Of a DNA stretch of 64,000 nt, positions 8,240-44,049 are shown piece by piece. The notes below the pieces were generated by a model that made no database searches, was not told the origin of the DNA, and saw nothing but the letters and a program-made list of their open reading frames with translations. A program made the translations under genes and the position numbers. The first letter of the stretch is position 1; each line of letters opens with the position of its first letter. Location: assembly GCA_963575745.1 (NCBI GenBank), contig CAUYUJ010019080.1, forward strand, positions 38,424 through 102,423. The letters are read 5' to 3'. The stretch is from Prorocentrum cordatum. Its lineage: Eukaryota; Sar; Dinophyceae; Prorocentrales; Prorocentraceae.

Positions 8240-9409
8240 TACATGTTGGCACTCGGAAACATCGTGGGGGTGTTTTCGGGGCCCTCGTGGGCCGTTTTGG
8301 CGCCTTCATGGGCCGTCCTGGGGTCTTCTTGGGCCGTCTTGGGGAGCTTGGGCCCGCTGGAGCCCCCTTTGGACCCATCTTGGGCACTTCCGGGGACCTC
8401 CCATGGCCCTTTTGGATCTGTGCTGGGAGCCCTTGGGGGGCCTCTTGGTTCCATTATGGGCTGTCTTGGGGCTCTCGTGGGCAATCGTGGGGCCCGGCTC
8501 GGCCGTCTTGAAGCTTTCTTGGGGGCCTTTTGGAGCGTCTTGAGGCGATCTCGGGGGCTTTGAAACCGTCTTGAAAGCTGATGACATCTGAAAGGCGAAT
8601 ATGCAAAAATTGTAAGTTTTACGAGGGGAATGGGACGATTTTTGTGCTTTGAAGGCCCCTTGGAAAGCTTTGTGGGGTGCCTTGGGGGTATTTATGTTGG
8701 CATTAGGAAACATCGTGGGGGTGCTTTCGGGGCCCTCGTGGGCCGTTTTGGCACCTTCATGGGCCGTCCTGGAGCCTTCTTGGGCCATCTGGGGGAGCTT
8801 GGGCCCGCTGGAGCCCCCTTTGGACCCATCTTGGGCACTTCCGGGGACCTCCCATGGCCCTTTTGGATCTGTGCTGGGAGCCCTTGGGGGGCCTCTTGCT
8901 TCCATTATGGGCTGTCTTGGGGCTCTCGTGGGCGATCGTGGGGCCCGGCTCGGCCGTCTTGAAGCTTTCTTGGGGGCCTTTTGGATCGTCTTGAGACGAT
9001 CTCGGGGGCTTTGACACCGTCTTGAAAGCTGATGACATCCGAAAGGCGAATATGCTAAAATTTTAAGTTTTACGAGGGGAATGGGACGATTTTGTGCTTT
9101 GAAGGCCCCTTGAAAAGTTTTTTGGGGTGCCTTGGGGGTCTTTATGTTGGCATTCGGAAACATCGTGGGGGTGCTTTCGGGGCCCTCGTGGGCCGTTTTG
9201 GCACCTTCATGGGCCGTCCTGGGGCCTTCTTGGGCCGTCTTGGGGAGCTTGGGCCCGCTGGAGCCCCCTTTGGACCCATCTTGGGCACTTCCAGGGACCT
9301 CCCATGGCCCTTTTGGGTCTGTGCTGGGAGCCCTTGGGGGCCTCTTGGTTCCATTATGGGTTGTCTTGGGGCTCTCGTGGGCGATCGTGGAGCCCGGCTC
9401 GGCCGTCTT
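8240..9409 (+). repeat. 450 bp tandem repeat array, units 1-3a
   Basis: The marker TTGGCA(C/T)T(C/A)GGAAACATCG occurs at 8246, 8697 and 9147, giving a period of 450-451. Units are about 95 percent alike by eye and are internally built from TCTTGGGGGCC-like words. Unit 3 stops at 9409 and resumes at 13435-13532 and again at about 15500. The pieces sum to about 450 bases, so one unit was split by two insertions. Confidence 0.92.
9391..9409 (+). repeat. Target-site duplication, left copy (19 bp)
   Basis: AGCCCGGCTCGGCCGTCTT, identical to 13416-13434. It belongs to the 450 bp repeat and was duplicated when the retrocopy inserted. Confidence 0.92.
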
Positions 9410-9417
9410 TTTTTTTT

Positions 9418-10995
9418 GTTTCAACGGTCGGGAGTGCGATCGTTGCTTGTCGTCAAATGATTTCCCACGTCCCTGGCATCATCATTCTGCCTAACAGACA
9501 GGCTGATGGACCTCTGGAAGATCTCAACAACGACGACGCCGCTGTTGCTCTATCTGTAGCAGGGAGATGTCGCTGACAGGAGACTGAGCCTCGGCGGCCA
9601 GCAGGTCGCACGTGTGCCCGGCGCGCTTCTTGCCCAGCAGTGTGCCCCCGGCTCGCGCCGCGGACGCGGCTCGCGATCGCCCTCGCTGCGACCAAAAAAG
9701 GTATCCAGCGCACAGTGGAGGGTTTCTCCGAAGGGCTTCGGCGACCCGTCCTCCTCCTCCTCCTCCTCCGCCTCCTCGTCTCCTTCTCCTTCTCCTTCTC
9801 CTATTGGCTCCTATTGGCTATGTGGCTGTCCGTTACCGCTGATCGATAAGGCAGCCCAAAAACAGTACCGAAGGCAAGGGCAAATAATGGGTTCAGGCGG
9901 TGGCGGACGTCCAACCCGCGTGAGCCGACCATTTCAACGGGGATGACCTCCCAAAGCTCGCTCCTGAGCTGGGGTCGATCCCATTTCTGAGAAGTCTAGA
10001 ACGGGCAGCACGGTTGCGAGGACCTTTCTCATCATATATCTGGTACGAGAGAAAACATACGTTTGCTTCTCGGGATCCTCTTGGAGGTCCCCTTGGGCAA
10101 GCATCGTGCTGTGAGTCCGCCACATGCTTGCGTAGCAGGTACGCCGCGCCCGAGCCCCATTTCAGCTGGCGTCTCCTCGCCCAAGCGCCCGGAGACATGC
10201 TGAGACACTGACGCCGCCGTGCCCGAGGCCCCGGACGCCGCCGCGCCGCGGCAGACACGAGAGAGGCCACGGCTCCGCCGTCGACCACACAAGGTCTGCC
10301 GCGACGCGGCCTGGCGGCGAGGCGGCCCGTCGCCGCCGAGGCGGCAGGGCGCTGCCAAACGTGGCAGCGTGGAACGGCCCAGCGGCGCTGGATCGGTGGC
10401 AAGAGGGAACAGCACTGAGCTTATGCACAGACCTGCTATTCGCGGTGTGCAGACATTCTCCGCTCTCGAGAACATGGGCTCCTGCTATTGAACGCACTGC
10501 GGGCCGAGCCTCCTGGTGCTGGGAAGCCCTGCAACACCACGCGCCTTCCATTCCGCCTGGAAGACTGGAGCGCTGACTCCACAGAAGAGGGATGGCTGGG
10601 CGAGGAGCTGCTGCGCCAGCGGCCAGGAGAGAAGCGAGGAGGCAGGAGGAGGAGGAGTATGGATAAACGAGAGGTGCCGACAGGATGAGGTCGGTAGCGT
10701 TGTTCCCACGAAATAGAAAGGAGCGCTCTGTAGGAATCCTTAGGAACCTGTAGACAAACTCGCCGCTCGGGCCCATGGAAAATCCGAACTTACTCTCGGA
10801 GGCGATGGGAAATCCGCACTCGCTCGTTCGAGCGAGACGAACTCCATGGACTCGTGAATCGCTCTGCTGCGATTGGCTATGACTCGAAGAACCGACACAA
10901 CAGCGCCACCGCGCCCGCTCGGGGTGGCTGTCGTGCACGCCCAGGGCGCCAAAACTGGGGCACTCTCGCCTCCGGCGGAGCTACCCTCTATCAGG
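9418..10995 (-). other. 3' region of the retrocopied mRNA
   Basis: It lies between the stop codon and the A tail of the retrocopy, so it is inferred to be 3' UTR. It holds a short CTC tract near 9750-9790. Minus-strand frames of up to 258 codons occur, but I recognise no family in them. A 1.6 kb 3' UTR is long, so a second frame or later insertions are possible. Confidence 0.6.
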
Positions 10996-13311
10996 CTACG
11001 ACCTCCTCTTGGGGACCTCGGCCTGCGGCGGCGATTCCTTGGGCTCGTCGCCCCGGCTCCCGTCGTCGCTCGAACGCCGCCCGCCCCCTTCCTCCACGAC
11101 GCCCGCCGAGGGCGCGCTGCCCTCCGCCGGCGGCTTTCCTCTCTCCGCGGCGTCCGCCGTCTCTCCCTTGGCGTCCTCCGCGTGGTCCTCCTCCTCCTCC
11201 TCCTCCTCAGAGAATAGCTCGTGGTACTTCGCCCGCGCGTAGAACCTCACCAGGTACACGAAGGCTGCGAGGAGGAAGCCGGCGGACAGGAAGAGGACCA
11301 CCGCCTGCATCTCCTGCGTGGAGCTCCACGCGTCGGTCGCGAGGACGGAGGCGCATATCAGGCTGCAGCAAGTGAATAGGAGAGAGAGTCCTTCTGCGTC
11401 GTTGAGCTTCTGGTACTTGTACGGTCGGAGTCGCATGTGTGCACCAAGGAACACGGTCATCGTGAAGAGTGCCATGGCTAATTTGGAAGATGGGCTGTAT
11501 GTGGTTGGAGCCAGAGTCGCGGTGACAGCGAGCACAGTAGTCTTGGTGAGACGGAAAGCCTCCCAAGACTGCCGCCCCTCAGTGTGGGACCCTGTGATGA
11601 ACTTCATTGCGTGGTCGTGCACCGAATTGCGAATCAGGAAGATCCAAAGTAGCGGCCCTGCCACAATGGCACCAGAAGCCAAAGGCACCGTGATCATCGA
11701 ATACCTCGCCCTGCCGCTGCAACTTGCCAGTGACTCGTGTGAAAGCCAGCTCTCAGCAGGCGCAAGGGGATCGTCCGGGTGCACCTGTGTGTGGTAGCAC
11801 GGGAGCGAGCGGGCGCACGCTGCGGTGATGAGTGGCACGAACTGGTTGGTCGCCACGATGTAGCACACCATGAGGCTGCCTGGCGTGTACTTGGCCCGGA
11901 ACCACTGGATTAACTGCGCCGTCATCGCCAGGAGCATCGCAATGGCTGCCTGAGCAAACACAAGGCCGACAACGCTCAGGGGCCCGATCTGTTGCTCGCC
12001 GCCGTTGACTAAGCAGTCGAGGCTGGACGCAAAAGCCGTGGCGTCACCTCCCGAAGCGTGAATGCCCATGCTGAGAACTCCTCTGACACCATCGGGCATC
12101 CTGCGGAACACAGGCGTTGCGTCTATGGTCGACGCGACGAGAGCAGAGGCGGAGGTGAACGCTAGCAAGATCTTCAGCGCATCGTTCGAGAAAGCTGCGG
12201 ATGCCCCCCTGCGCGCGGCGTCAAACGCACTGCGGAGGGAGGCCGCGTAGAGCATGATCGGCACTCCAAGCCACGCGAGCCACTGAAGAATCTGGTGGCC
12301 ACACTGCTCACAGATGAAGGGATCAGCGTTACTGCGTCCAAAACCAATTGTGCAAGAAGCGCATCCGGGTGTTGTCGAATTGTACCCTTCCTGGCACTGT
12401 GCCTCTGCACGCAGTGTTTCGCAGTTGTCCGCAGCCTTGCTGCGGGGGTCCACGTTCAGCTCGACAACGCTATGAGGACAAGCTATGCTGTTAGGGCAGC
12501 GATGAGCTGACGTGCCGTTCTTCTGATATTGTATCGTAGCTCCTTCTGGCACGTTGATCAGCCAGTCGCTAACATATATATATATATATATATATATATC
12601 CATCTTGACTTGCTTGCTCAGGTGCATCGTGCAGGATTTCTCCACCAAGGCCTTATCTTTTAATTGCTTGGCCACCTTCATCTCTTTTTCCGCCTTCTCA
12701 GTGTCCTTGATCGCTCGCTGGCTTTTATTGAGAGCTTCTTCCTCCTTCTTTCGGGCGCGTTTCAGTTGTCCTTTTGCAAAACGTTCCCTACGCTTCACAT
12801 CTTTAAGTTCATGCCGCACCACAATTGCACTGTTGTTTGCAATGTGCGTACTCGCTTCCAACGCCTTAATGCACTCCTTCAATTCTCCCACCGTCACGGA
12901 GGTGTAATCAGGTAACTTGTCAATATTTTTTAGGAGGCTCTGGCATTCTGGCGTCAACTGAACCTGGGCCTTGGCCTCGAGGGCGGGCCCTTCCTCGTTG
13001 CCGACACCCTCCTCGCCTCCGGCCCTCTGCATGCTCCCGCCGGGGGCCCGCTGTGGCCTCGCGCCCGATCTCGACGAAACGCTCGCGGTAGGCCGCCCGC
13101 CTGTCCAGGCCTGCTTCTCCTCCAAGCCCGCGGTCGTCCCGCCCTGTGCGGCGCCACCAGACAGCTGGCCCCGCGAGTCCACGGCGAGCACCTCCCTGCG
13201 AACCAGGGCGCTCCCGCGCCCTCCCTGCGCGGAGCGCGCGCGCGCGGGCGGGCAGAGGAGCAGCGCCGCGGCCAGCAAGGTGAGCCGCCGAGGTCGCTCG
13301 GGGAACGCCAT
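10996..13311 (-). CDS. Predicted multi-pass membrane protein with Cys-rich ectodomain (retrogene)
   Basis: 771 residues from the ATG at 13311, 82 bases after the leader. The open frame extends further upstream only through leader and repeat sequence. Residues 1-27 look like a signal peptide (basic start, then LTLLAAALLL). Residues about 141-236 are Lys/Glu-rich coiled coil. Residues 239-247 (IYIYIYIYV) come from an in-frame (TA)n tract. Residues 272-337 contain eight Cys, with CQEGYNSTTPGCASC resembling GCC2/GCC3 or ephrin-receptor-like Cys repeats. About eight to nine hydrophobic spans follow (342-358, 379-396, 444-466, 478-499, 540-560, 589-626, 641-658, 668-689). The tail is Glu-rich then Ser/Pro-rich. 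The layout resembles protist polytopic proteins with a Cys-rich ectodomain and a TRP-like core. Ligand and transport role are unknown. No frame break was found, so it could be functional. Confidence 0.8.
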   Translation of the reverse strand: MAFPERPRRLTLLAAALLLCPPARARSAQGGRGSALVRREVLAVDSRGQLSGGAAQGGTTAGLEEKQAWTGGRPTASVSSRSGARPQRAPGGSMQRAGGEEGVGNEEGPALEAKAQVQLTPECQSLLKNIDKLPDYTSVTVGELKECIKALEASTHIANNSAIVVRHELKDVKRRERFAKGQLKRARKKEEEALNKSQRAIKDTEKAEKEMKVAKQLKDKALVEKSCTMHLSKQVKMDIYIYIYIYVSDWLINVPEGATIQYQKNGTSAHRCPNSIACPHSVVELNVDPRSKAADNCETLRAEAQCQEGYNSTTPGCASCTIGFGRSNADPFICEQCGHQILQWLAWLGVPIMLYAASLRSAFDAARRGASAAFSNDALKILLAFTSASALVASTIDATPVFRRMPDGVRGVLSMGIHASGGDATAFASSLDCLVNGGEQQIGPLSVVGLVFAQAAIAMLLAMTAQLIQWFRAKYTPGSLMVCYIVATNQFVPLITAACARSLPCYHTQVHPDDPLAPAESWLSHESLASCSGRARYSMITVPLASGAIVAGPLLWIFLIRNSVHDHAMKFITGSHTEGRQSWEAFRLTKTTVLAVTATLAPTTYSPSSKLAMALFTMTVFLGAHMRLRPYKYQKLNDAEGLSLLFTCCSLICASVLATDAWSSTQEMQAVVLFLSAGFLLAAFVYLVRFYARAKYHELFSEEEEEEEDHAEDAKGETADAAERGKPPAEGSAPSAGVVEEGGGRRSSDDGSRGDEPKESPPQAEVPKRRS
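12574..12599 (+). repeat. (TA)n tract inside the retrogene
   Basis: A 26-base TA run is translated in frame within the membrane-protein gene. An intron reading (GT at 12609 to AG at 12569, 41 bases) would shift the frame, so it is probably a microsatellite within the exon. Its flanks (CCAGTC..TAACAT on one side, ATCC on the other) resemble those of the TA tract in the LINE at 40099. Confidence 0.8.
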
Positions 13312-13393
13312 GGGCACGGCGCGCTTCTCTGCGTCGGCGTTGTGACCAGCTCTCGCGCGCGCTCGCGCGGGCGTGCGGGCGCACGACGGCGAG

Positions 13394-13415
13394 CTTGAGC
13401 CAAAATGGCTACGCA
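13394..13415 (-). other. Dinoflagellate spliced-leader (DinoSL) sequence
   Basis: The minus strand reads CGTAGCCATTTTGGCTCAAG (13413-13394), preceded by TG. The known 22-base DinoSL begins D-C-C-G-T-A-G (D = A, G or T), so this is a 21/22 match covering the whole leader. It abuts the 19 bp target duplication. A genomic leader joined to a gene shows the gene came from trans-spliced mRNA. It is not an SL RNA gene: no donor GT follows the leader. Confidence 0.93.
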
Positions 13416-13434
13416 AGCCCGGCTCGGCCGTCTT
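13416..13434 (+). repeat. Target-site duplication, right copy (19 bp)
   Basis: Identical to 9391-9409. The bases that follow (GAAGCTTTCTTGGGGGCC) continue the 450 bp repeat exactly as in its unbroken units at 8508 and 8961. Confidence 0.92.
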
Positions 13435-13532
13435 GAAGCTTTCTTGGGGGCCTTTTGGGGCGTCTGGAGGCAATCTCGGGGGTTTTGAAACCGTCTTGAA
13501 AGCTGATGAAGTCCGAAAGGCGAATATGCTAA
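13435..13532 (+). repeat. 450 bp repeat, unit 3 continued
   Basis: Continuation of the unit broken at 9409. It matches 8961-9061 up to GGCGAATATGCTAAAAT, where a second insertion begins. Confidence 0.88.
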
Positions 13533-13772
13533 AATCCCACCAGCCCTTTGGGCGTGAGTGGTTTAGCGAGCTCTCTCTGTCCTCAACCCCCCTTCTTCCC
13601 CTTCGGGTAGGGGTTTACCCCTCCCCCTACCCCCTCCCCCTGGGCCTGGAGAGGGGGTCCCGCGGGTCGTCAGGGGGGTCAATTTCGACTCCTGGGAGGG
13701 CTAAAAAACGACGACCCTCACGAGGATTCTGGCCCCGACGGGGGGGCGGAGATAAGTCCCTCTCCTCTTCTG

Positions 13773-38501: not shown

Positions 38502-38512
38502 GAATCGGAATC
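38502..38512 (+). repeat. Candidate LINE target-site duplication, 3' copy
   Basis: GAATCGGAATC, equal to 44036-44046. GATAC repeats (tail of the element) lie directly inside it. GAATCGG words recur locally, so chance is not excluded. Confidence 0.6.
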
Positions 38513-38637
38513 GATACGATACGATACGACTCAGCCTGGATGGAGGTGCAACTCCCGCTGGATGGCAGAACTACCTGGGCAAGTGAAAGAGACAGCAGCG
38601 ATGGAAGAAAGGCGGGCGTGGGCGCGCCTGAGCGCGA

Positions 38638-40097: not shown

Positions 40098-42041
40098 TTA
40101 TATATATATATATATATATATATCCCCAGAAACAATATGCAATGGTATCCGAAATTCGATAGCTTTCTCAACCAGGAGGCGAATAATAAAAATGACCTCG
40201 GCCGTCTGGTGCGCAGGGCGAAAGGCAAACTGGTTCGGCGACAGTGGCCGATCTGCAATGCGGCCTAGCTCGGACAGTATCTGCATATGAGCCTTCCATA
40301 GCACCGAGAGGACTGCAATGGGGCGCCATTTCTTAATGTGCAATGGATTGGTCATTTTCTCGATAAGATGAACATCGTGCTCGTCCCAGCCACAGGGCCC
40401 GTCCATCGATGGGTCATTCAGGAGTCTAAGTTCGAAGAGAGAGGCGAGGATCTCGAAGAAATCATCCGAGGCGTCCAGGAACATTTCGACGACGAGTAAC
40501 TCACTTCGGGGGCATGACTTACCACGTTTCATACGAAGGAAAACTTGCCGAACTCGAGCGCCAGAAAGTTGGACGAGGCCCTCGAGGGCCGAACGGTCCC
40601 AGCGTTTCTGGATCCAATCAGGGAGCTGCATGACGTTTTTGGACCGATGCAAATCTCCGAAGAAGGACTCGGCAAGGTCTAAGATCTCCTGGGGGTCCGT
40701 CGTCAGGACACCTTGCTCGTTAAACATGGCCCCCTGCCAGGTCGGTGGCGGGACACTTCGGTCTGCACGACCTTTGGAGAGAAGCCAGTCGCACTCGTAC
40801 GCGAACTTATTCTGCTGCAGCTGGCGGCGGATCATAGACTCAGCCGTGCAGTAAAAGTGTCGAAGCTGCTGCGTCGCGGCAGCTCGTCGGAGAGATCTGA
40901 CGGCCTCGAGGTGGGTACGGGTGATTTCGTCTTCTTCTTTCTCTGGCTTGGGGGGGGGTCTCCGGTTGCGTCGATGTCCGTGATCGGCGGCGGCGGTCGA
41001 AATGGCGTCAGCCAGAAAGCGTAACGAGGGAAGGGGGCGTCCATGGGCATCCGTACAGGGTCTGAAAGGTTCCTCATCGGGCTCCAGTGGGGGCGTCGCG
41101 GGGGCGGGGGCAGGGAGCGGAGAGGTGGCGTGTTCGGACCGGCGGTGGCGGGGTCTCTTGCGGAGGGGGAGGCAGGCGGGGGGCGGGGTAGGGTCGGCCT
41201 CCAGCCGACGAGCGAAACACGGAGGAATCTTCCAGGTCGATTCTTCCCCAGGAGGCGGCGTCCAGGAATCCGTCAGCTTGCTCCAGGGTTCTCGCGGCCA
41301 GTAGGAAGGCGTGTAATGTCGCACACTGATTCGGGCGGGGTGGTTGGACCGAGGGTCCGCTCCTTCCTTGGCCAGTAGGTCGACCGCCGTGTTTCCTCGA
41401 TCTTGAGAGTGACCTTTGCGCCACTCTGGCAAGCACACCTGATAGCGCCTGCAAACGTCCTGCCACAGCGCCAGCATGACGGACACCAGATTCAAATTAG
41501 ATCGAGGCCGCCATCGTCCCCAGATTATCTGTTGGCAATATCGAGAGTCGAAGATCATCTTGATTTTGGCCTGAGGGGGGATCGTCCTGACGTTGTCGGG
41601 GAGGGAGTCCTGGAAAATCAACCACAGAAAGGCCTCAATGGGTGCCGTCAACTCTGCCGCGTTGTTCGACTCTCTACACGCTCCCACAAAGAGTGGGTCT
41701 TCAGGGCCAGTGCATACTGGTCCACATGCTGAGGCTAAAGGAGAGGAGCCTGCCGTCGGAGACGCCGAGGAAAAAAGTGCAAAGCCCCAACCAGCACGTC
41801 CTCGGAGGTGATCACGCGCACGCTTCCGATACCTAGGTAGTGTGTCGTAGAAAGAGCCATCCAGGAAGAGTCCGAAAGCCTCGTCGTCCCGAAAGAAACA
41901 GTGTACAGTACGATCGACCTCGAGGGCGTCGCCGAGAGCGTTTCGATAAGCCGTGATATCCGAACAAGTCCAGTTTATTGGTTTGGGAGGCGGAGGAGGG
42001 GAAGCCGCTGTCAGAGTCCAGTTACTGCTAGGATCGCGCAC
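40098..42041 (-). pseudogene. LINE RNase H plus reverse transcriptase N-terminal half
   Basis: About 647 codons. RNase H comes first, with all acidic residues visible: LFLDGS (D61), NNAAELTA (E130), IFDSRY (D165), KGHSQD (H211) and NTAVDLL (D221). After a Pro-rich linker comes the RT finger region: HIKKWRPIAVLS (about 570) and NQFAFRPAHQTAE (about 605). The frame ends in HIVSGD followed by IYIYIYI and a stop, where (TA)n interrupts motif A. RNase H before RT is the reverse of the order in I- and R1-type LINEs. The frame has no clear ATG and is entered by a shift from the endonuclease frame. Confidence 0.82.
40099..40122 (+). repeat. (TA)n tract inside RT motif A
   Basis: A TA run plus T7 separates VSGD from YDWVDH and shifts the frame. 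Flanks CCAGTCATAACAT and ATCC resemble those of the TA run in the retrogene at 12574. Confidence 0.85.
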
Positions 42042-44035: not shown

Positions 44036-44046
44036 GAATCGGAATC
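44036..44046 (+). repeat. Candidate LINE target-site duplication, 5' copy
   Basis: GAATCGGAATC, matching 38502-38512. A further GGAATCGGAATCGG lies at 44104, beyond the GGA run. Confidence 0.6.
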
Positions 44047-44049
44047 GGA

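Follow-up and report, generated by a model that had tools for sequence, protein, structure and literature searches.

Dinoflagellate retrogenes, as Slamovits and Keeling are said to have established in 2008, are tagged by relics of the spliced leader DinoSL, and the species treated here, Prorocentrum cordatum, is presumably the same as the one listed elsewhere as P. minimum. According to a 2018 review (PMC6050394), such genes account for one fifth to one quarter of all genes in the dinoflagellates surveyed, and a count based on tandems of DinoSL relics gives 477 of them in P. minimum (PMC12014239). The review treats the type of inserting element as unknown and favours Ty1/copia LTR elements, the later count leaves the responsible element open, and a third study argues for LINEs from their nearness (PMC10235124). 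The processed pseudogenes made by L1 in mammals are described as intron-poor and A-tailed, with target duplications at their flanks (PMC4151081).

Here, one insert is described from the window, that is, the whole stretch of 64,000 bases of P. cordatum DNA that was analysed. It is highly probable that a processed P. cordatum mRNA was copied here at full length, and that this retrocopy was placed by a LINE-type element acting in trans through target-primed reverse transcription (TPRT).

Structure of the insert and its target site

The insert lies on the minus strand and is bounded by two copies of a 19-bp sequence. In minus-strand order, the first of these copies (13434-13416, on the 5' side, reading AAGACGGCCGAGCCGGGCT) is followed by a copy of DinoSL (13415-13394), by 82 nt that would correspond to the leader region at the 5' end of the original mRNA (13393-13312, from reading and script), and by an ATG at 13311. 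This codon opens an unbroken frame of 771 codons, established by ORF translation, which closes with a TAG ending at 10996. Then come a 3' region of 1,578 nt (10995-9418, by script), an A-run (9417-9408) and, on the 3' side, the second copy of the 19-bp sequence (9409-9391). The duplication stands directly against the leader on one side and against the A-run on the other, with no sequence between. Leader, frame, tail and duplication, together with the restored empty unit described below, are read directly from the DNA, and they bear out what an earlier, sequence-only reading had reported for the leader, the frame, the 3' region and the exact 19-bp repeats.

The 22 bases at 13415-13394 read TGCGTAGCCATTTTGGCTCAAG and agree with the DinoSL consensus (given in PMC6050394) at 21 of 22 positions, the mismatch falling at position 2. 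Their opening TG can be read in two ways. It may be positions 1-2 of the leader, with G in place of C at the second of them, or it may be two filler bases ahead of a leader cut at position 3, which is then identical over 20 of 20 bases. Under equal base frequencies, a 22-mer with at most one mismatch to DinoSL is expected about 1.5e-6 times per window. The genomic leader sequence sits 82 nt before the ATG and upstream of a coding frame, which is the arrangement by which dinoflagellate retrogenes are recognised.

The 3' region holds none of the motifs AATAAA, ATTAAA, AATGAA and TGTAA in its 1,578 nt, and no Rfam family reaches its gathering score within the window. A frame of 204 codons inside this region (10162-10776, minus strand) has a single relative, P0004, a protein predicted for P. 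cordatum (59% over 53%). Instead of marking a second gene, this match may mean that P0004 is a paralogous 3' region wrongly taken for a gene.

The A-run at the 3' end and the adjoining duplication have two bases in common, so that the junction consists either of A8 and 19 bp or of A10 and 17 bp. The earlier reading had reported A10 next to a 19-bp repeat; both are present, but they cannot both be counted in full. Its further claim that the insert fixes the ends of the source mRNA holds to within about two bases at each end.

The target is a tandem array with a repeat of about 450 bp, which comparison of the sequences resolves into two whole units of 451 and 450 bp and the start of an interrupted third (8243-9409). 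The third unit is broken after 9409, continues from 13435 and ends near 13534, its remainder (13435-13534) closing the array. Once the insert is removed, the joined flanks are identical to unit 1 in 349 of 368 aligned columns and to unit 2 in 348 of 368, about as good a match as that between units 1 and 2 themselves (353 of 368); the expectation that excision would restore a 450-bp unit is thus borne out. At 13535-13560 the array stops abruptly and unrelated sequence starts.

The 19-mer itself, AGCCCGGCTCGGCCGTCTT on the plus strand, was searched for on that strand by script and by reading; 9391-9409 and 13416-13434 are its only plus-strand sites in the window, and it is exact at both. Its last 18 bases have four plus-strand occurrences, namely in units 1 and 2 (8492 and 8943) and in both flanks of the insert. 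They are preceded by A on both sides of the insert, but by G in either of the intact units. Because this A is private to the flanking copies, the far copy stems from the very unit that the insert interrupts, and the pair is a duplication of one target.

The window is repetitive, and for this reason 85 of 2000 random points are matched by an identical direct copy, 17 bp or longer, located 0.2-8 kb upstream. A repeat should therefore not be trusted by itself here; it becomes convincing when taken together with the leader, the tail and the restored unit. Of six A-runs of at least eight bases in the window (five on the plus strand, one on the minus), only that of the retrocopy has a flanking repeat of at least 12 bp under the filter used; at the other five, no tail-plus-duplication insertion was found with this filter.

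Encoded protein, age and fate

Two predicted P. cordatum proteins are close relatives of the 771-residue product, in a search that scored only the 7,995 candidates with most words in common. P0002 (626 aa) reaches 92% in the alignment and 90% over 82% by BLASTP, and P0003 (801 aa) reaches 74% and 69% over 99%, respectively. The frame runs without an intron over 2.3 kb, and its product can be aligned with P0003 along the entire length. Across 524 core sites the private changes number 80 in P0003, with 6 further sites at which all three sequences differ; the counts for the retrocopy and P0002 are taken up below. In-frame gaps relative to both paralogs, located in the helical region, suggest that the source was a third paralog or had diverged from P0002 and P0003.

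The protein has a hydrophobic N-terminus, recognised by eye, a Cys-rich stretch, six hydrophobic segments and an acidic tail, and a low-confidence model predicts a long helix. From the N-terminus, the Cys-rich stretch, the six segments and that low-confidence model, it looks like a membrane protein. Searches of Pfam and NCBIfam gave matches below the curated cut-offs only, and PDB sequences gave four matches, the best with an E of 0.09. AlphaFold2 run on the three-sequence alignment produced a mean pLDDT of 33.7, too poor to use. The G+C content of the window averages 59.6% over 32 blocks, and that of P. cordatum is reported as 59.7% (PMC10666404).

Within the frame, an (AT)13 microsatellite (12574-12599, minus strand) adds six codons (IYIYIY) that are missing from both paralogs. 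A second (TA)n expansion lies in another coding frame of the window, at 40099-40122, and each of the two follows GGATATA on the minus strand; the second disrupts the reverse-transcriptase frame of a LINE, and the first leaves the frame of the retrocopy open.

Regarding age, the 19-bp duplication shows 0 differences, which bounds divergence at less than 7.6% per copy at 95%. The insertion had been called very recent, and this is plausible from the unchanged duplication, but the bound that it sets is a loose one; that the retrocopy is young is probable. In the frame, 255 of 6,939 possible single changes give a stop, so that one unit of neutral divergence would bring about 85 stops. From these counts, the open frame would mean either low divergence or selection, which are not separable on this basis.

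This leaves room for a rival reading, which concerns how old the copy is and what became of it but not how it arose, and which overlaps with the main statement: an established functional retrogene under selection instead of a young, unselected copy. It would explain why 771 codons remain open and why the microsatellite was gained in frame, and it agrees with the 6 private changes of the retrocopy against 8 in P0002 at the core sites, no excess of change. Survival of retrogenes is also described as frequent in dinoflagellates (PMC6050394). On the other side, duplication, leader and tail are all intact, as fits youth without selection, and private changes at sites on which both paralogs agree, such as Y576H, Y582S and E635K, could mark relaxed constraint. 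A selected gene is regarded as somewhat unlikely.

Route of insertion

TPRT leaves target-site duplications of about 7-20 bp. The exact duplication of 17-19 bp falls in this range, and a tail of A8-A10 abuts it directly. From duplication, tail and leader together, TPRT-type insertion of a processed copy running from leader to tail is the best explanation, as the sequence-only reading had proposed. For the RNA intermediate, the enzyme, the order of the steps and any present activity, what follows is what we infer.

The source would have been a mature transcript, cis-spliced, trans-spliced to DinoSL and polyadenylated. Genes of P. cordatum have on average 9.8 introns, with 240-bp exons and 4.7-kb introns, and 83.7% of them bear introns (PMC10666404); against this intron-rich background, an intron-free frame of 2.3 kb in a unit that runs from leader to tail points to a mature mRNA. 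The target would have been nicked in the last unit of the array, at GTCTT/GAAG on the plus strand, and the freed 3' end in TT could then have paired with the A-tail and primed synthesis. Such pairing would also account for the two bases common to tail and duplication. Synthesis of the cDNA extended as far as leader base 1 or 3, as read from the sequence. A second nick, 17-19 bp away, followed by gap filling, would have generated the duplication that is observed. Most likely, the machinery would have been provided in trans by an element of LINE type (non-LTR). Should the locus be transcribed, a new leader is expected to be joined at the AG of GTAG/CC, inside the existing leader copy. The predicted mRNA would then begin with DinoSL, followed by CCATTTTGGCTCAAG and CTCGCCGTCGTGCG, and so show the tandem on which the retrogene count of PMC12014239 is based.

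Several points stand against this explanation. The L1 endonuclease motif is TTTT/AA, to which GTCTT/GAAG, at this one site, bears only a loose likeness. The LINE found in the window (see below) has no poly(A), and its frame of 656 codons is without a relative among those scored. To these are added the missing polyadenylation-like hexamer in the 3' region and the frequency of long direct repeats at random points.

An alternative route would be copying by the reverse transcriptase of an LTR element, with integration by integrase or by template switching. Integrase duplications measure 4-6 bp, and the duplication of 17-19 bp seen here, with the A-tail abutting it, is longer than that; furthermore, nothing lies between the duplication and the leader or the tail, so that the copy has no LTR attached to it. 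This route is regarded as improbable, even though Ty1/copia elements are the mediators favoured in PMC6050394 and although, for Suessiales, which are another order, LTRs are described as conserved and LINEs as remnants of old age (PMC8045281). Least probable is an assembly join or library chimera, with a cDNA or transcript contig pasted into the array: tandem repeats are risky places for assembly, and transcripts were used in scaffolding the assembly of P. cordatum CCMP1329 (PMC10666404), which would matter if the window belongs to it. However, the 64,000 bases contain no N, and a join is not expected to leave identical repeats at both ends, each with the variant that is private to the interrupted unit.

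Leader-bearing insertions and known systems

The window also contains a degraded LINE-like element (44028-38514), recognised by a leader relic, its frames and domain matches, on the same strand as the retrocopy (minus). At its 5' end (44028-44014) stands an exact 15-nt relic of DinoSL, CCATTTTGGCTCAAG. The first frame has 375 codons. An endonuclease-like frame has a weak Pfam match (E 0.02, below the cut-off) and no match among PDB sequences. In the frame of 656 codons, an RNase H match (E 3.6e-7, above the cut-off) comes first; the reverse-transcriptase match that follows it is weak and stays below the cut-off (E 0.005), and no relative of this frame was found with E up to 0.001 among 7989 candidates scored. 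The repeat at 40099-40122, here a (TA)12, breaks the frame within the reverse-transcriptase region. The element apparently ends in (CGTAT)3, without poly(A), followed by a 12-bp repeat of sequence that lies 7 nt upstream of the relic. The two 12-bp copies (44036-44047 and 38502-38513) form a candidate target duplication, and at least 12 bp are in common in 5 of 400 random pairs. This structure suggests that LINE-type insertion of leader-bearing RNA occurs in the P. cordatum genome. Its tail is not made of A, so the element is not evidently the partner of the retrocopy.

Taken together, the two insertions allow a broader reading that is put forward tentatively, as possible but short of probable: mRNA recycling in dinoflagellates would proceed by LINE-type TPRT and not by LTR elements, leader-capped RNA would be its normal substrate, and modified bases of the leader would halt the reverse transcriptase in vivo or lead it astray, leaving their stamp on each insertion. 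That leader-capped RNA could be the normal substrate follows from the presence, in one window, of a host mRNA and a LINE both inserted with a 5' leader. The part played by modified bases comes from the starting points: the leader of the retrocopy deviates at position 2 or starts at position 3, and the relic of the LINE begins at position 8. In Polarella, about 70% of full-length transcripts of DinoSL type start at leader positions 2 or 8, which are two cytosine pairs, and the authors explain this by methylation affecting 5' selection (PMC7245778). Positions 2-3 and 8 being those of the Polarella cDNA starts (PMC7245778), modified bases may stall or mislead the reverse transcriptase. Two cases prove nothing, since position 8 is also the cut point of re-splicing at GTAG.

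Young copies that keep both junctions address the question of the inserting element directly, and the retrocopy points to LINE-type insertion. They also provide a search rule for whole dinoflagellate assemblies, namely a leader, an A-run and a duplication of 15-20 bp, and the retrocopy locus in addition yields a testable RNA prediction.

The retrocopy is real and complete; it belongs to a known kind, and its junctions tell unusually much. Among the matches listed from the dinoflagellate literature on retrogene mechanism, target duplications, tails and non-LTR elements, in the text available there, no such junctions appear. With the mammalian processed pseudogenes made by L1 (PMC4151081), the retrocopy shares the lack of introns, the 3' A-tail and the target duplication. 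It differs from them in its trans-spliced leader at the 5' end and in a cleavage motif that is only loosely alike. For the endogenised RNA-virus genes of dinoflagellates that carry relict DinoSL, LINE-mediated retroposition of leader-bearing RNA is proposed as well; in that case the support, as described in PMC10235124, consists of the nearness of LINEs and of leader relics and concerns viral genes, whereas here it comes from the structure of the junctions and concerns a host mRNA. Closest of all are the DinoSL-relic retrogenes of dinoflagellates (PMC6050394, PMC12014239), which are likewise derived from mRNA and carry leader sequence upstream of an open frame. These have been found mostly via transcripts or upstream relics, whereas the retrocopy keeps both junctions, the A-tail and the duplication in one genomic copy.
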